Source: Bacillota bacterium (GTDB lineage Bacteria > Eremiobacterota > SpSt-956 > JAKJGF01). From it: a DNA stretch of 6,215 nt. The translations under genes were made by a program, and so were the position numbers. The notes under the pieces were generated by a model, which had not been told where the DNA came from, ran no database searches, and worked only from the letters and a program-made list of their open reading frames with translations. Shown in pieces: positions 1-6,215 of the stretch; within the stretch, counting starts at the first letter, position 1, and each line of letters begins with the position of its first letter. The stretch spans positions 1-6,215 of the forward strand of contig JAKPQU010000530.1 of NCBI GenBank assembly GCA_029555925.1, written 5' to 3'.

Positions 1-36
1 CTGGAGAAGAAAAATTCGTTTTTTCTATAGTATTAG

Positions 37-57
37 AAATTAACCAGTGGTTAATTT
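37..57. promoter_or_regulatory. Perfect 21-bp palindrome, operator-like
   Basis: The arms AAATTAACCA and TGGTTAATTT are exact reverse complements around a single central G at 47. Symmetry stops at the next pair outward (36 G, 58 A). Such odd-centred dyads are typical of dimeric repressor sites (inference). As RNA it could fold into a 9-bp stem with a 3-nt AGT loop, but no T-run follows on the plus strand, so a simple terminator is less likely. The gene it serves is not visible and may lie left of the window. Confidence 0.4.
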
Positions 58-135
58 ATTGTCTGTAAAACAAATTAAATAAGGCAAATTATTTTTCTTC
101 GTAAGAGCCTGGCAGGCAGAAGCTGATAAATGGTT

Positions 136-170
136 ACTAAGTTGCCTGTAGCGGTACTTAGTGTTTTTTT
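136..170 (+). terminator. Hairpin plus seven-T run, intrinsic terminator-like
   Basis: ACTAAGT (136-142) and ACTTAGT (156-162) form a perfect 7-bp stem around a 13-nt loop. A G and then seven T (164-170) follow. This is the layout of a Rho-independent terminator, although the stem is only two-sevenths G+C. The loop contains TGCCTG (143-148), complementary to CAGGCA upstream at 113-118, so a pseudoknot or alternative fold is possible. It may end a transcript from a gene left of the window, or be the expression platform of an unrecognised leader RNA. I could not match the upstream part to a known riboswitch class. Confidence 0.45.
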
Positions 171-194
171 AATTTATATTTTTTTCAAATTTCG

Positions 195-343
195 ATTATA
201 GTGTATTTCATAACTTATTAGAAATTAAGTCGTCGTGACGCGTAACGCGTGACGCGTGACGGGTTTAATCCCTGCGCATCACGCATTACGCTTTACGCAT
301 TACGAGGTCATTATTTATAGATAGTTATGAAACTAACTATAAT
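195..343. repeat. Palindromic MITE-like element, copy 1 (long form)
   Basis: The roughly 149-bp element has imperfect terminal inverted repeats. The left end ATTATAGTGTATTTCATAACT matches the reverse complement of the right end (about 323-343) at 18 of 21 positions. Inside is a G+C-rich long hairpin: the left arm has heptamer units of GTGACGC/GTAACGC type (about 235-263), a GGG-TTTAAT-CCC turn sits at 261-272, and the right arm has ATCACGC/ATTACGC/TTTACGC units (to about 304). It is non-coding, with no transposase. No clear target-site duplication is visible. It is either a non-autonomous mobile element or an intergenic palindromic repeat family; a second copy lies at 459-585. Confidence 0.8.
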
Positions 344-344
344 T

Positions 345-458
345 CAATAATATAAAAAGATGATTATTAAGAAATTGCTTGACTGAACTTAACAGCTTAA
401 ATATAATTAGATATATTATTTATTTTGAAAATAGATTTTATATAAATTCATACTCAGG
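345..458 (+). other. AT-rich spacer between the two repeat copies
   Basis: This 114-bp stretch is free of genes and very AT-rich. Its one supportable signal is the sigma-70-type promoter at 379-407. The rest shows no long dyad or repeat. Confidence 0.5.
379..407 (+). promoter_or_regulatory. Sigma-70-type promoter for the pilT block
   Basis: TTGACT (379-384) and TATAAT (402-407) are separated by 17 bp: five of six bases match in the -35 box, all six in the -10 box, and the spacing is ideal. Transcription would start near 413-415 and run rightward. It would copy the whole of palindromic element copy 2 into the 5' untranslated RNA before reaching pilT at 633. AT-rich DNA produces chance -10 boxes, but both boxes at optimal spacing upstream of a same-strand gene block make this credible. 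Confidence 0.55.
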
Positions 459-585
459 AATATAGTGTATTTCATAACTTATTAAAATTAAGTCGTCGTG
501 ACGCGTAACGCGTGACGGGTTTAATCCCTGCGCATCACGCATTACGAGGTCATTATTTATGGATAGTTATGAAACTAACTATAAT
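459..585. repeat. Palindromic MITE-like element, copy 2 (short form)
   Basis: The roughly 127-bp element lies in the same orientation as copy 1 and is nearly identical to it outside the heptamer arms. It keeps the terminal inverted repeats and the GGG-TTTAAT-CCC turn (517-528). It has one heptamer fewer in the left arm and two fewer in the right arm, plus a 1-bp deletion after the left terminus; together these account for the 22-bp length difference. Lying just upstream of the pilT ribosome site and downstream of the 379-407 promoter, it would be transcribed as a long imperfect hairpin in the leader. Confidence 0.8.
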
Positions 586-593
586 TAAATTTT

Positions 594-632
594 TAAGGAG
601 GGAATCGGTAGAAACCGAAAAACTAACCTTTT
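594..632 (+). promoter_or_regulatory. Distant Shine-Dalgarno with intervening hairpin upstream of pilT
   Basis: A strong AAGGAGGG (595-602) lies about 30 nt before the ATG at 633, too far for normal initiation. Between them TCGGT (605-609) and ACCGA (614-618) form a 5-bp stem with an AGAA loop. AAGG (595-598) can also pair with CCTT (627-630). An in-frame TAA at 624-626 excludes any earlier pilT start, and no ATG, GTG or TTG occurs 4-12 nt after the Shine-Dalgarno. Folding of the hairpin would shorten the effective spacing to about 16 nt, so a structure-dependent start is possible (inference). Confidence 0.45.
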
Positions 633-1772
633 ATGAAAAGAGATAAAGAATTAAATGCTCTAAAAGAGATGGAATTATTCAGGAAAGCTATAGAAATGGG
701 TGCCTCTGATTTACATCTCTCGGCAGGCTCATCGCCTATAATAAGATTGAATGGAAAACTTCATCATCTTGATTATGCCGCATTACTTCCTGAAGATGTT
801 CATGAAATCATCTCACTTATAACAACTAACTATCAAAAAAGTATGTTTTATAGCGAAACTCCGGTAGATCTGGATTTTACCCTTGAAGTACCTGATCTGG
901 CAAGATTTCGTGTCAATATATTCAAACAGTTAAACGGTGAATCTATTGCTATGAGAGTTCTACCGAGTGAAATAAGAACCGTAGAAGACCTCTTTTTACC
1001 CAACATAGTAAATGATCTGGCAAGATTAAGAAATGGTCTGATACTGGTTACAGGGAAAACCGGTTCAGGTAAATCAACTACCCTTGCCACCATGCTGGAA
1101 CTGGTAAATAAAGAATATTACAAACATATAATAACAATATAAGATCCTATAGAATTTGTATATAAACCAAAGAAGTGCCTTATAAATCAGAGAGAAGTCG
1201 GTATGCATACACCTGATTTCGCTACAGCTTTAAGAAGTGCGTTGAGAGAAGACCCCGATATTGTAATGATAGGAGAAATAAGAGATGTAGAAACTGCCGA
1301 AATGGCTCTTAAAGCAGGTCAGATGGGTGCGCTTATTCTGTCAACTCTTCATACCCGTAATACCTATGAAACCATTAACCGTCTCATAACACTTTTCCCG
1401 GCAGATCAGAGAGCAAATGTAAAAAATCAATTTGCCGATGTCATTCAGGGGGTAATCTGTCAATCCCTTATTCCAAGAAGGGATAAAAAAGGAAGAATTG
1501 TTTGCTGTGAAATGATGTTAGGCACACCTGCCATTAAAAATTTAATAAGAGAAGATAAACTTCATTTGATATACAGCACAATTCAGTTAGGTTCCCATGA
1601 AGGTATGTGTACAATGGAACAATCACTTATAAGATTATTAAACCAGGGAATTATAGATCTGGAAGACGCATTAATGATAGCAAATAACAAAAAAGCATTT
1701 CTGTCGGAAATTTCTTCCCAGCAGGAGGAAAGTCTTACTAAATCTGAATTAACACTGGAAGAACTCAACTAG
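633..1772 (+). pseudogene. PilT, type IV pilus retraction ATPase, interrupted by one in-frame TAA
   Basis: PilT is a cytoplasmic hexameric ATPase at the pilus base that disassembles pilin for retraction and twitching. The full frame would be 379 residues, close to or slightly above the family's usual length. Visible are the N-terminal GASDLHLS segment (23-30), Walker A GKTGSGKST (141-149), Walker B with E215 (IGEIRD), the His box STLHT with H240, and the C-terminal AIKNLIRE signature (300-307) that marks PilT. Codon 170 (1140-1142) is TAA, where the family has the Asp-box glutamate of TIEDPIE; the frame resumes at once with DPIEF. One G-to-T change from GAA explains it, and no other damage is seen. 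The products would be a 169-residue fragment without ATPase function and possibly a restart at M191 (1203). Alternatives are a sequencing or assembly error, a recent mutation, or readthrough. The downstream gene starts 9 nt after the stop, so they are probably cotranscribed. Confidence 0.9.
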
Positions 1773-1781
1773 AGGTTAACA

Positions 1782-2156
1782 ATGGAAAAAAAGGATAGAG
1801 ATGAAGAAAAAATAGAACAGATGATATTAAACAACTTCTCAAATCCTGAAATGAAGGCACTTATTGATAAAATAGTTTCGAGTCCTGATAAAGAAAAAAT
1901 AAAGAAAAATATTTTAGATGGAGGGCTAATTGAAAAATATAAAAGGTTATCTCCTGCACCTCTTTCGCAGGAGGAAGAAGAAATAATAAGAACTATATAT
2001 CTTTATCTCTGCATGGAAGGGAAAGCGGAAAAAATAAAGAAAATGATGGAAACAACTATAAAAATAACGTCTGTTCCCTTTGCAAGAGGCAGTGAAAAAA
2101 TGGCGTTTCTTCAGTGGAAAGATAAAAAACAGAAACCGCCAAAATTATTTGAATAA
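1782..2156 (+). CDS. Uncharacterised 124-aa protein downstream of pilT
   Basis: I do not recognise this family. The ATG follows the pilT stop by 9 nt, with AGAGGT (1771-1776) as a moderate ribosome site, so it is probably translated from the pilT transcript. The protein is very rich in Lys and Glu and has no signal peptide or membrane segment. It appears mostly helical: a charged N-terminus, a NPEMKALIDKIV helix near 22-33, a central EEEEIIRTIYLYLCMEGKAE helix (about 64-83), and a basic C-terminal tail ending KPPKLFE. The C-terminal third has some non-helical character (FARGSEKMAFLQWKD). It could be a small cytoplasmic partner of the pilus motor or of the HEAT-REC protein that follows; this rests on position only. 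Confidence 0.75.
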   Translation: MEKKDRDEEKIEQMILNNFSNPEMKALIDKIVSSPDKEKIKKNILDGGLIEKYKRLSPAPLSQEEEEIIRTIYLYLCMEGKAEKIKKMMETTIKITSVPFARGSEKMAFLQWKDKKQKPPKLFE

Positions 2157-2159
2157 TAT
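2140..2159. repeat. 20-bp exact direct repeat, copy A
   Basis: CAAAATTATTTGAATAATAT covers the last codons (KLFE and the stop) of the 124-aa gene. The identical 20 bp recur 48 bp downstream at 2188-2207. The flanks of the two copies do not match, so this is either a short duplication whose remainder has diverged or an AT-rich coincidence. Confidence 0.6.
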
Positions 2160-2187
2160 TCTGGAAAAATAAATAGATAAAAATTAT

Positions 2188-2207
2188 CAAAATTATTTGA
2201 ATAATAT
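2188..2207. repeat. 20-bp exact direct repeat, copy B
   Basis: This second copy of the 20-mer at 2140-2159 lies in the intergenic leader of the HEAT-REC gene. It contains a TTG (2197) that opens a longer reading frame in phase with that gene, but no ribosome site precedes it, so I do not use that start. Confidence 0.6.
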
Positions 2208-2232
2208 AAAATATTTAGAAAGGCTTGTTTAT

Positions 2233-3033
2233 ATGAGTGATGAATTAGAAAAAATTATTGGTATGATGCGGGATAATGATCCTAAAAACAGGCAGAGAGC
2301 GACAAAACTGCTTGGAAATACGCAGGATAACAGGGTAATTCAGCCACTAATAGAGGCTCTGGGAGATGAGAATGTCGAAGTAAGACGGCAGGCAGCAGAT
2401 GCTTTAGGAACCCTGGGAGTAAAAGAAGCTGTTATACCTCTTATAAAAAGTATGAATGATCCTGATGATTTCGTGAGAGGTATCGTAACATGGGCTCTTG
2501 GAAAAATTAAAGATACAAGAGCAGTGGATAATCTGATAGAAGCGTTAAATGATACGGACTGGTGGGTAAGAAAGAACGCAGCAGAAGCCCTGAAATTAAT
2601 AGGAGGGGAAAAGGCTTTACAGGCACTGTCACAGCTTAAACAGGAAACGGAAAAAGCTACAAAAAAAATTCTTATAGTAGATGATGATAAGTTCATTCTG
2701 GAATATATTCAGATAAATCTAGAACTGGATGGCTATAAAGTAATAGAAGCTTTCGATGGAGAAGAGGCACTAAAAAAAGCAATAGATGAACGTCCCGATC
2801 TCATATTACTCGATATTATGATACCCAAAGTTGATGGGTGGCAGGTATGTAAGACACTGAAAGAAAATCCAAAGACAAAAGATATCCCTGTTATAATGGT
2901 ATCTGCCAAAACCCAGGTAGACGATTTCATAAAAGGTATGGATGCAGGAGCTACTTTTTACATAATGAAACCGTTCAGCCCTGTACAATTAAGTGATGCC
3001 ATACAAAAAGCTCTTACAAATCAGCTTGGATAA
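2233..3033 (+). CDS. HEAT-repeat protein with C-terminal response-regulator receiver domain
   Basis: This is a 266-aa cytoplasmic signalling protein. Residues about 12-137 form PBS-lyase-type HEAT repeats: one partial and three full units of about 31 residues, each with a VxPLIxxLxD...VRxxAAxALGxxG pattern, giving a helical protein-binding solenoid. Residues about 144-264 form a complete CheY-like receiver: acidic pocket D150-D152, phosphoacceptor D194 (ILLDIMIP), conserved S224, aromatic Y243 and lysine K246 (KPF). All catalytic residues are present, so phosphorylation by a histidine kinase is expected. There is no DNA-binding or enzymatic output domain; output is probably a phosphorylation-controlled protein contact through the HEAT part (inference). 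I chose the ATG at 2233 because AGAAAGG (2217-2223) lies 9 nt upstream; an in-frame TTG at 2197 would add 12 residues but lacks a ribosome site. No kinase gene lies in the window. Confidence 0.9.
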   Translation: MSDELEKIIGMMRDNDPKNRQRATKLLGNTQDNRVIQPLIEALGDENVEVRRQAADALGTLGVKEAVIPLIKSMNDPDDFVRGIVTWALGKIKDTRAVDNLIEALNDTDWWVRKNAAEALKLIGGEKALQALSQLKQETEKATKKILIVDDDKFILEYIQINLELDGYKVIEAFDGEEALKKAIDERPDLILLDIMIPKVDGWQVCKTLKENPKTKDIPVIMVSAKTQVDDFIKGMDAGATFYIMKPFSPVQLSDAIQKALTNQLG

Positions 3034-3222
3034 TCTCTCATAAATTTATATAAACTTTCGGTGCAACCTTATTGGAAAGAAAAGAGGGGTAAAGGCTGCA
3101 GGTGAGAATATATATTATAAATATTTTTTAGTACTAGTGTAACCATTATTAATGTACAGTATGAAAAATTTGTATAGACTGGGGAGAAGTTACTGACATT
3201 ATACGGGTCAGGTTTATAAATA
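3034..3222 (+). other. 189-bp leader between the HEAT-REC and TPR genes
   Basis: No gene is seen. TGCAACCTT (3062-3070) and AAGGCTGCA (3092-3100) can pair at eight of nine positions around a 21-nt purine-rich loop containing GAGGGG. An 8-bp palindrome TAGTACTA lies at 3129-3136. CTGAC (3193-3197) and GTCAG (3207-3211) form a 5-bp stem that would partly mask the weak AGG ribosome site of the TPR gene. The T-run at 3124-3129 is too far from the first stem for a standard terminator. I recognise no riboswitch class and no convincing promoter. Confidence 0.35.
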
Positions 3223-4458
3223 ATGCGTCGTCCTTTTTATTCAGGCCTTACTCTAATGGCCCTTGGAAGAATAGATATAGCTGTAAAAGAGTTTAAGAAA
3301 GCTATAAAATTTGATTACTCTGATATCGAATCCCATGCCAATCTTGGAATAGCCTATTATGAACAGGGTAAACTGGATCTGGCATTAAAAGAATTTGCTA
3401 TATGTCTTGAACTGGACCCTGAATATGAAGCAGCTCTCGGCAATATGGGTAATATTTACAATATTCAGGAAGAAAGAGAGATGGCAATAGAAAGTTACAA
3501 GAAATTAGTAAAAATAAACCCGAACAGTTATGAAGCATATAATAATCTGGGGCTGACCTATTATGAAATGGGAGATTTTGATAAGGCCCGTGAATATATG
3601 GAAGAGGCAGTTAAAATAGATGAAAATCAGGGTATTCTTTATAATCTTGGTCTTGTAGCTTATAAAAAGAAAGAAATAAAAAAAGCAATAGAGCTATTTA
3701 ATAAAGCCTATGAAATTGACTCACAGAATCAAAATACAAATTTTAATCTCGCCACAATCTACATGGAAACAGGAGATTATGAAAAAGCTGTAAAATATTT
3801 CAAAAATTCTGTTGTAATAAATGAAAAAGATTCCGTAGCATGGGAAAAACTTGCCAGTGCATATTTAAAAACAGAAGATTATTCATCTTCTTTAAACGCA
3901 TATAAAAGAGCTCTGGACATAGACCCTACTGATCCGGAAACCCATCAGGGACTGGCAAAGGTTTATATAGCTATGGGCAATGAAAAACTGGCTGAAGTGG
4001 CTATTGAAAATGCTATGGCCCTGTCTGCCGATCAGGCATCCTGCTATTATCTGAAAGGTCTTCTCTGTGCCGAAAAAGGAGAGACAGAAGAAGCAAAAGA
4101 ATTCTATAAAAAAGCCATGGAAGAAGGTTATGACAGAGGAGATATCCATACAAGTATGGGAGAATTACTGGAGATGGAAGGTAATATAGACGAGGCAATA
4201 GAAGAATATGAAACTGCTATAGAAGCAGGCTCAGTCAGTGGCAATGATTTTTTTAATGCAGGGTATGCTTTTTATCAGATATATGATTTTGATAGTGCTA
4301 TAGAATACTATAAAAAAGCTATAGAAAAGAATCCCGATGATGTTACCTTTCATGATTATCTTGGCCGGGCCTATATGGAAAACGGAGAAGAGGAACTGGC
4401 ACAGCAGGAATTTGACATTATAAACAGATCTTTTTCTGATTTTGATTTTTCCGGCTAA
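3223..4458 (+). CDS. TPR-repeat scaffold protein (about 12 repeats)
   Basis: The 411-aa protein consists almost wholly of tetratricopeptide repeats: about twelve 33-35-residue units from residue 5 to about 405. Most show the NLGxAYYxxGxxxxAxxxFxxAxxxxP pattern, for example NLGIAYYEQGKLDLALKEF (41-59) and NNLGLTYYEMGDFDKAREYM (107-126). TPR arrays form superhelical protein-binding surfaces and often serve as pilus, secretion or signalling assembly factors; no catalytic domain, signal peptide or membrane segment is visible, so it is probably cytoplasmic. The start is bounded by an in-frame TAA two codons upstream (3217-3219). The only ribosome-site candidate is a weak AGG at 3210-3212, 10 nt before the ATG. 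The first repeat begins almost at the N-terminus. The gene converges on the hfq-like gene, sharing 4 bp. A role with PilT or HEAT-REC is suggested only by position. Confidence 0.9.
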   Translation: MRRPFYSGLTLMALGRIDIAVKEFKKAIKFDYSDIESHANLGIAYYEQGKLDLALKEFAICLELDPEYEAALGNMGNIYNIQEEREMAIESYKKLVKINPNSYEAYNNLGLTYYEMGDFDKAREYMEEAVKIDENQGILYNLGLVAYKKKEIKKAIELFNKAYEIDSQNQNTNFNLATIYMETGDYEKAVKYFKNSVVINEKDSVAWEKLASAYLKTEDYSSSLNAYKRALDIDPTDPETHQGLAKVYIAMGNEKLAEVAIENAMALSADQASCYYLKGLLCAEKGETEEAKEFYKKAMEEGYDRGDIHTSMGELLEMEGNIDEAIEEYETAIEAGSVSGNDFFNAGYAFYQIYDFDSAIEYYKKAIEKNPDDVTFHDYLGRAYMENGEEELAQQEFDIINRSFSDFDFSG

Positions 4459-4727
4459 TTCTGTATCATATATTTCACTGAATGCTTTAAAATTGTATAT
4501 TCCACGCCATCCTCTGTAACTATATTTACATTGTATTTATTAAACCATTGCATTTTACCTTTGAGAGATGAATTATCTAAAAATTTAAATGTAAAAGATA
4601 TATTATTTTTTATAGCCTTTACGAAATATTTATCTGTATAGGTATTAACCCACCGTCTGATAGATTTCTTAGTTATTTTTTCATTATCTTCTGATAAATT
4701 ATCCTGAACAGATAGTTCCTGAGTCAT
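4455..4727 (-). CDS. Hfq-like Sm-fold RNA chaperone
   Basis: Hfq is a ring-forming hexamer that binds small RNAs and mRNAs and promotes their pairing. Residues about 34-88 of this 90-aa protein follow the Hfq layout: an N-terminal helix with FVKAI (35-39; E. coli FLNAL), a strongly bent beta sheet with the Sm1 pattern LKGKMQWFNKYNVNIV (55-70; E. coli LQGQIESFDQFVILL), and Sm2 LKHSV (80-84; E. coli YKHAI). K81 and H82 match the hallmark KH pair of the proximal RNA site, and Y65 replaces F42. The usual N-terminal Gln-Asp (QDxF) is absent, with Asp-Lys-Tyr before the Phe. An acidic-to-basic extension of about 28 residues precedes the fold and there is almost no C-terminal tail. AAGGTG (4733-4738, reverse strand) lies 5 nt before the ATG. 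Its TAG overlaps the TPR gene's TAA within CTAA. I call it a divergent Hfq from motif layout alone. Confidence 0.72.
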   Translation of the reverse strand: MTQELSVQDNLSEDNEKITKKSIRRWVNTYTDKYFVKAIKNNISFTFKFLDNSSLKGKMQWFNKYNVNIVTEDGVEYTILKHSVKYMIQN

Positions 4728-4917
4728 AAGTTCACCTTATTTCTAAAAATTTTATAGAGGGTATGAACACTGATTAACGAAATACAGATCGTGTAATAAA
4801 TGTTGTCTCTATTGTACGTTTACGCAAAAGCTCTTACAGGCTCTACATATAAAAAAACCATAAGTATCTAAAAGCTATTAGATTATATCATACAGGAATA
4901 TAATTGACAAGAAAGCT
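4728..4917. other. Divergent intergenic region between hfq-like and methyltransferase genes
   Basis: This 190-bp gap must hold promoters for both directions. For the minus-strand gene a TATAAA (reverse strand of 4751-4756) is present without a good -35 partner. For the plus-strand gene TATAAT occurs at 4899-4904, only 13 nt before the ATG and without a -35. An imperfect dyad, ATCTAA (4866-4871) and TTAGAT (4878-4883), flanks 6 nt and could be an operator. No gene or long repeat is seen. Confidence 0.35.
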
Positions 4918-5682
4918 ATGAAAGAAGACATTTTTTTCAAAAAAATAAGAAGAAAATATAATAATTATTCGGAAATAGAATTTTTAAAAAGAATGGCTCC
5001 TCTAGGTCTTGAAGATTATGAAGAAATCATCGTTGATAAATACTGTAAAAAAGACAGGTATACTCTTGTCATTGGCTGTGGAGCAGGAAGAGAAGCCTTT
5101 GCCCTGGCAAAAAAAAAATTACATGTAACAGGAATAGATATAGTAGAAAAACTGGTAAGAATCTGCCATAATGAAGGGAAAGAAAAAAATATTAAAGCAG
5201 ATTTCTTAACTATGAATGGCTGTCATCTTGGTTTCAAAAAAGAAAGTTTTGACTATATAATACTGTTTGGACAGCTTATATCTCTCATACCTTTTAGAGA
5301 AAACAGAATAAATACCCTTAAAGAATGTAAAAGAATATTGAAGGACAATGGACTGATAATTTTCACGACCCATTCAAGAGAAAGAAATCTTAAAGAAAAA
5401 CTAAAATGGACCATTATAAATTTTATAAGAAAAATAAGTTCAGGAAAACTCCAGGAAGGAGATAAGCTGGTAAGTGCCATCAGTGGCTATCATCTTTCGG
5501 AAGAAAAAATTTTCATGCATCTTTACACATCGCAGGAAGCATTGAAAGATATGGAACTGTCGGGATTACAATTGATAGAATACAGAGGTGCCACTGAAAT
5601 AGTTAATAATATAAACTGTCCGTCTATTAGAGAAAGTGATAAATATATCATTTATATAGCAGGGAAAGGGAAAGAAATATGA
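4918..5682 (+). CDS. Class I SAM-dependent methyltransferase, substrate unknown
   Basis: The 254-aa protein has a Rossmann-fold methyltransferase core. Motif I, LVIGCGAGREAFALA (50-64, Gly53/55/57), binds SAM; VTGIDIV (70-76) ends the second strand with acidic D74, which contacts the ribose; ADFLTMN (94-100) precedes FDYIILFGQLISLIP (111-125), the post-II segment; RILKDNGLIIFTTHSR (139-154) is the typical motif III region. The C-terminal third (about 155-250) is a family-specific substrate cap that I cannot assign. The motif III layout resembles small-molecule or quinone-type methyltransferases (methyltransferase 11/25 style) rather than DNA or rRNA enzymes (inference). The ribosome site is weak (AAGAAAG ending 2 nt before the ATG, or AGGA about 20 nt upstream). 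It is divergent from hfq-like and converges on the flgM-like gene with 38 bp between stops and no clear terminator. Confidence 0.85.
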   Translation: MKEDIFFKKIRRKYNNYSEIEFLKRMAPLGLEDYEEIIVDKYCKKDRYTLVIGCGAGREAFALAKKKLHVTGIDIVEKLVRICHNEGKEKNIKADFLTMNGCHLGFKKESFDYIILFGQLISLIPFRENRINTLKECKRILKDNGLIIFTTHSRERNLKEKLKWTIINFIRKISSGKLQEGDKLVSAISGYHLSEEKIFMHLYTSQEALKDMELSGLQLIEYRGATEIVNNINCPSIRESDKYIIYIAGKGKEI

Positions 5683-5702
5683 AACAGAACGATGCAGACT
5701 AA
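5679..5702 (+). other. Seven-codon ORF overlapping the methyltransferase stop
   Basis: ATG at 5679 overlaps the methyltransferase TGA as ATGA, a common translational-coupling layout, and AAAGGG lies about 8 nt upstream. The frame reads MKQNDAD and stops at 5702. It is too short to call a gene. It may be the stub of a lost downstream gene or simple coincidence. Confidence 0.15.
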
Positions 5703-5720
5703 TTCATTGTTTATAGATAT

Positions 5721-5945
5721 TCAAAGAGAAAATATACCAAAATATTCCAGTATCTTCCTGGCAACGTTATCTTCCTCTATATAATAGGAACCTTCTATAA
5801 TCTGTCTTTTTAATTCTTCAATTTTAAATGTCCTGTCAAATGTTTTATTATCACAGTAAGAGTCACAATATTTCTGGTTATATTTTTTTTGTAAAGACAG
5901 ACTAAAAATATCTGTTTTCATAAATTTATTTTTTTTATGATGCAC
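5721..5945 (-). CDS. FlgM-like anti-sigma-28 factor (candidate)
   Basis: FlgM binds the flagellar/motility sigma factor FliA and blocks it until exported. Residues about 40-69 of this 74-aa protein match the FlgM C-terminal sigma-binding pattern: KIEELKRQIIEGSYYI (41-56), then EEDNVARKILEYF (57-69), compare the general V..LK..I..G.Y.VD...IA.K.L layout. The N-terminal half is polar and low in complexity, in line with the disordered N-terminus of FlgM, but includes two Cys (C27, C31) not typical of the family. The protein is shorter than the usual 85-100 residues. The GTG start at 5945 is chosen because AAGGTG (5954-5959, reverse strand) lies 8 nt upstream; an internal ATG (M9) lacks such a site. 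No flagellar gene or sigma-28 gene is visible nearby. The match rests on about 30 residues. Confidence 0.55.
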   Translation of the reverse strand: MHHKKNKFMKTDIFSLSLQKKYNQKYCDSYCDNKTFDRTFKIEELKRQIIEGSYYIEEDNVARKILEYFGIFSL

Positions 5946-6187
5946 TGTAATAACACCTTATTTACTCAAATATTAAATTTATATGAGAATGATGAAGTTT
6001 GCAACTTCACCGGATGCTAATTCTTATATTTGGTTGTGACTGCTCCGGTCATATTTGTTAGACCTCAATAAATAATATACTCCTTTGCATAGGAAAATAC
6101 AATAATTTTGTGTAAAGCAAAAAGGATATTCAATACAATGTAGAAAAAATCATGTAAAAATAAAAAAGTAATACAGGAGAAAGAGAT
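5946..6187. other. Divergent intergenic region upstream of the flgM-like gene
   Basis: This 242-bp gap has no gene. It contains the double-hairpin element at 5993-6049. On the minus strand TTGCAA (5998-6003 reversed) and TATAAA lie 15 bp apart, a weak promoter that overlaps the first hairpin. On the plus side TACAAT (6134-6139) with TTGTGT (6108-6113) has a 20-bp spacer, too long to be convincing. I see no sigma-28-type promoter. Confidence 0.4.
5993..6049 (-). promoter_or_regulatory. Two adjacent hairpins in the flgM-like leader
   Basis: TGAAGTT (5993-5999) and AACTTCA (6003-6009) are perfect complements around TGC. Directly adjoining, ACCGGA-T-GC (6009-6017) and GCTCCGGT (6042-6049) pair over 8 bp with one bulge around a 24-nt AT-rich loop. 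The G+C-rich stems stand out in AT-rich surroundings. They could be a structured 5' leader of the flgM-like gene if transcription begins right of 6049, or a remnant of a repeat or insertion-element end. No known riboswitch class was recognised and no second copy occurs in the window. Confidence 0.4.
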
Positions 6188-6215
6188 ATGTCTGATATTA
6201 AAAGAGGATTAACCT
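6188..6215 (+). CDS. 5' end of an unidentified gene, cut by the window edge
   Basis: ATG at 6188 is preceded by AGGAGA (6175-6180) with a 7-nt spacer, the best ribosome site in the window. The visible product is MSDIKRGLT, too short to identify. It is divergent from the flgM-like gene and so may share the regulatory gap between them. Confidence 0.6.

Follow-up and report, generated by a model that had tools for sequence, protein, structure and literature searches.

PilT/PilU type IVa pilus ATPases (profile TIGR01420) share a set of motifs, for which the names are taken here from the excerpted text of PMC6762196: Walker A, Walker B, Asp box, His box and an AIRNLIRE-type motif. In the excerpts of PMC5424180 and PMC6762196, the role given to the acidic residues of the Asp box is magnesium coordination, while the catalytic glutamate is placed after or in Walker B. 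According to a figure legend in PMC5065972, the acidic residues of the Asp box are essential for the activity of PilT. Passages of PMC6762196 and PMC5065972 remark on up to four PilT paralogues, or on the five PilT proteins of M. xanthus, as being many. Interrupted pilT genes also occur in print. According to an excerpt of PMC4688374, the Francisella LVS strain carries a natural nonsense mutation that splits its pilT frame into two annotated loci, and an excerpt of PMC13170266 reports a mutant that was selected by phage and has a truncated PilT.

Here we analyzed a stretch of 6,215 nucleotides (hereafter, the window; contig JAKPQU010000530.1, positions 1 to 6,215 of the forward strand), which contains a pilT gene with one internal stop codon. 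The gene resembles pilT of Francisella LVS, as excerpted in PMC4688374, in that one nonsense mutation splits its frame. It resembles the TIGR01420 ATPases in that both halves match the family and the motifs are present except at codon 170, but it differs from them in its broken frame and in lying apart from the pilB-pilT-pilC run that is seen in the nearest relative (genome G001, locus L001). The window contains the following features:

633..1772, plus strand: pilT frame of 379 codons, from ATG 633 to 1769, then TAG 1770-1772; TAA as codon 170
633..1142, plus strand: 5' part of pilT, 169 codons and stop; N-terminal domain and Walker A; matches TIGR01420 and PDB PilT chains
1140..1142, plus strand: TAA in frame as codon 170, at the position of the Asp box; Glu in the other nine sequences of alignment A1
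1143..1772, plus strand: 3' part of pilT, 209 codons and TAG; Walker B, His box and AIKNLIRE; matches TIGR01420 and PDB PilT chains
1203..1772, plus strand: ORF of 189 aa that may be restarted at ATG 1203; lacks Walker A; Shine-Dalgarno-like pairing weak
1782..2156, plus strand: intact gene for a protein of 124 aa that has no match in Pfam or NCBIfam; also 3' of pilT in L001
2233..3033, plus strand: intact gene for a HEAT-repeat and response-regulator receiver protein; family matches; counterpart in L001
3223..4458, plus strand: intact gene for a TPR protein; family matches; counterpart in L001
4455-4727, minus strand: small ORF resembling Hfq; matches Hfq_1 and an Hfq-related family of cyanobacteria weakly, in both cases under the curated cut-off
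Beyond the Hfq-like ORF, plus strand: methyltransferase
Beyond the methyltransferase, minus strand: FlgM-like ORF, over the Pfam cut-off and under the NCBIfam cut-off

Upstream of pilT lie two repeat copies of about 150 bases (window 173-348 and 437-590), whose pieces are 76-97% alike and which have GACGCGTAACGCGTGACG-like cores and inverted arms. Rfam yielded no match at gathering scores, a plasmid search returned matches to 9 records, covering 2-6% of the query, and the DNA pattern across codon 170 had no match in viral_contigs. Among the matches listed in the literature on pilT premature stops, pseudogenes and nonsense mutations and on expansions of PilT paralogues in candidate phyla, none described this gene, and a search for literature on Eremiobacteraeota together with PilT gave no match.

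The TAA is in phase with ATG 633 and with TAG 1770-1772, and it is flanked by HIITI (residues 165-169) and DPIEF (residues 171-175). Apart from codon 170, where the stop replaces the Asp-box glutamate, the motif set of the family is present, with GKTGSGKST, GEIRD, LHT and AIKNLIRE intact; on these points the initial annotation was correct. No further stop was found in the whole 379-codon frame, whose start and length are the same as in the nearest relative. When the two halves were searched separately, they scored 158.3 bits (633-1139) and 243.4 bits (1143-1769) against TIGR01420, compared with 427.7 bits for the intact ortholog of G001 and a curated cut-off of 319.1 bits that is set for the whole protein. 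Each half on its own also matched solved PilT chains in the PDB. The window pilT has the motifs of the family, but its frame does not encode one uninterrupted product.

The stop had initially been placed at an "Asp-box catalytic glutamate". The Asp-box position is confirmed, whereas "catalytic" is imprecise, because the excerpts of PMC5424180 and PMC6762196 assign magnesium coordination to this box and place the catalytic glutamate in or after Walker B. By our reading, the catalytic glutamate of the window protein is probably E215, which is intact, and E357 of PilB would be the counterpart of codon 170.

The place of the stop is itself uninformative. Across the pilT frame, 156 of the 3402 possible single-base changes produce a stop, and these are spread over 127 of the 379 codons, so that a coincidence with a motif residue carries little weight. 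Eight of the 127 stop-prone codons fall in the four motifs, if these have the spans that we take them to have. A stop in any of these codons would end the protein, and its location at a conserved glutamate therefore adds nothing.

The nearest relative found was P0002, an uninterrupted protein of 379 aa with 93% identity, whose cluster comprises 13 member sequences from 12 contigs in a protein database clustered at 90%. In the genome collection it was found as L001 on contig JAKJGF010000052.1 of G001; the labels differ, the contig being assigned to a Bacillota MAG and the protein cluster to Candidatus Eremiobacteraeota. The window and L001 have the gene order from pilT to the methyltransferase in common. 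Their DNA matches have identities of 82, 80, 74 and 72%, the first of which spans pilT and the 124-aa gene, and 178 of 1134 compared pilT bases differ. The 124-aa protein had eight relatives in a protein search (60-96% identity). The Hfq-like ORF has a counterpart in L001 (56% over 79 residues), and none was found for the FlgM-like ORF in the L001 stretch examined.

Position 170 is occupied by glutamate in all nine other sequences of alignment A1 and in 21 of 22 PilT-like frames of G001 (ortholog excluded from the count). The initial annotation had proposed to compare this codon among related genomes, so that glutamate there would identify a sequencing error. The residue was found as expected in 9/9 sequences, but these relatives are more distant than members of the same species, and their glutamate is therefore no proof of an error. 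A sequencing or assembly artefact, that is, a wrong base in the contig and an intact gene in the organism, is nevertheless a possible explanation, although clearly the less probable one. It would agree with the nine intact homologues and with a single lesion that is constrained on both sides. Yet a protein search with the first piece of pilT retrieved the exact 169-aa product on two contigs, the longer of which has 6215 bases, as does the window, and five other genes (four on the plus strand and the Hfq-like ORF) are uninterrupted in comparison with L001. Neither point is decisive, and the two contigs could share reads; their common 169-aa product weakly favours a real allele. A close homologue fragment, P0131 (160 aa, 83%), stops short near residue 160, at either a contig end or a stop. 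Overall, we consider a real allele to be roughly twice as probable as an error.

Substitution patterns between the window and L001 constrain the age of the stop. The N half had a dN of 0.030 and a dS of 0.97, and the C half had a dN of 0.056 and a dS of 1.16 (NG86), with dS estimates near 1 being close to saturation. In the C half dN was thus about twice as high as in the N half, and the other four genes in the comparison gave higher values (0.121 to 0.245) than either half. The window protein differs from P0002 at 24 residues, with the derived state in the window for 10, in P0002 for 5 and ambiguous for 9 (respectively 5, 2 and 1 before the stop and 5, 3 and 8 after it). The difference between 10 and 5 derived changes is not significant (two-sided binomial, p = 0.30). 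One of the window-derived changes is T244, at a position that is alanine in each of the other nine sequences. Neutral divergence since the stop is capped at 1.9% when the 10 derived changes are counted and at 3.2% when all 19 possible ones are included. With dN low relative to dS in both halves and without additional stops, the gene shows neither the relaxed constraint nor the further lesions of a decayed pseudogene. Constraint on both halves together with the few derived changes therefore indicates that the stop either arose recently, within about 2-3% of neutral divergence at most, or is not real. From the lack of decay, the initial annotation had concluded that the event was very recent, an artefact, or tolerated by readthrough or restart; our data agree with the first two options and offer no positive support for the last.

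Readthrough of the UAA by recoding at codon 170 is very improbable in our assessment. The conserved downstream frame is the sole point in its favour, whereas TAA terminates the three neighbouring genes (124-aa, HEAT/receiver and TPR), from which we conclude that it is an ordinary stop here, and none of the nine aligned homologues has a stop at codon 170. No internal stops were found among the matches listed in the 58 genomes around G001 (331 matches, G001 included). A separate search listed at least seven stop-bearing matches, with five stops at query positions 357-369, near the match end, and one at position 8, while one match had no stop after re-alignment. Among the matches listed, none of the seven is interrupted by a stop within the conserved domain, which argues against recoding. 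A recurrent stop at the Asp box was considered and rejected (0 of the seven among the matches listed). In the 60 genomes around the control centre, one of 140 pilT-family matches had a lone internal stop. This gene of genome G066 (L054 393-1481, G066:C250) resembles the window pilT in its single internal stop and in the frame that continues on both sides. However, it belongs to another lineage and has its TAA at another codon (query position 220, near Walker B), which is a further argument against recoding.

It had been suggested that two fragments are made. The piece that ends at the stop at 1140 and a piece restarted at ATG 1203 might cooperate, or the first might be dominant negative on other PilT hexamers, but we judge this to be improbable. 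The Shine-Dalgarno-like pairing predicted by duplexfold at ATG 1203 is weak (-3.8; the next gene has -6.5 and the start of pilT itself 0.1), although together with the undecayed 3' part it is compatible with a restart. However, recency by itself explains the lack of decay, and ATG 1203 encodes M191, a plain methionine position that is common to the intact relatives P0004 and P0005, and is therefore not specific to the interrupted allele. The restart product would lack residues 171-190, and no such split pair occurs among the 22 aligned PilT-like frames of G001. The first fragment would be without Walker B and His box and the second without Walker A, and positive support for the suggestion was not found.

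The functional consequence depends on the other PilT proteins of the organism. A search for a second pilT, as recommended in the initial annotation, was run on the genome of the relative G001 (about 5 Mb), from which the content of the window's own genome may be extrapolated. It yielded 30 matches to TIGR01420, 19 of them over the curated cut-off, and 32 T2SSE matches, 31 of them over the cut-off. On contig C405 of G001, PilB (TIGR02538, 698 bits, over the cut-off), PilT (TIGR01420, 489 bits, over the cut-off) and a PilC-like protein (PilC as best match with 428 bits, under the cut-off of 700) are encoded in a row, followed by a sigma factor. Further along C405 lies a frame that we read as PilD-like, with no NCBIfam match at the limit used. 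The ortholog of the window pilT is located on C271 and forms a group (100/99 support) with the paralogues from C331 and C199, and the C405 pilT falls outside this group. The neighbours of the window pilT are the 124-aa, HEAT/receiver and TPR genes, whereas a canonical retraction pilT would be expected next to pilB or pilC.

PilT/PilU genes of G001 were observed on contigs C61, C201, C215, C28, C271, C284, C331, C337, C400, C405 and C199, and many of them adjoin in pairs or runs. The His-box histidine aligned with H240 is kept in only 14 of the 22 PilT-like frames of this genome. At least eight members at E ≤ 1e-95 were present in 21 of the 58 genomes around G001, itself included (median 5, maximum 19), and 10 of the 58 had no member at this threshold. 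Two of the 60 control-centre genomes had at least eight members (median 2, maximum 11). All these counts per genome may be low where candidates outnumbered those scored.

Loss of PilT-driven retraction, which the initial annotation had predicted for the strain, does not follow from the stop, because the relative has 19 PilT/PilU members and a separate pilB-pilT-pilC run. The cell would probably not have lost retraction, a judgement based on a relative whose pilT has 178 differences in the 1134 bases compared. We propose, as the explanation that we favour with some confidence, that the window contains a recent nonsense allele, or a minority allele captured by the assembly, of an accessory PilT/PilU-family ATPase gene, and that loss of retraction is not to be expected. 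If the stop is present in the DNA of the cell, a nonsense mutation would have arisen recently in an accessory pilT of an uncultured bacterium. Translation would end after residue 169, shortly beyond Walker A and within the ATPase core; the product could therefore not hydrolyse ATP and would probably be degraded or inert. Provided that the paralogues of G001 are shared, retraction would be maintained by other PilT proteins, chief among them the one whose gene lies between pilB and pilC. An allele that is maintained or reversible in a lineage very rich in PilT proteins, with the accessory PilT turned off in some members of the population (pilus-binding phages, for instance, could exert such pressure) or with a P-loop-only fragment tuning other PilT hexamers, appears to us a rather remote prospect compared with such a recent nonsense allele.

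Taken alone, the stop matters little, as it is either an error or a further single nonsense codon in a paralogue that is probably dispensable. More generally, a stop in a gene called "pilT" says nothing about pilus retraction until the paralogues have been counted. The expansion of PilT is the better lead and would make a division of labour among PilT/PilU motors testable.
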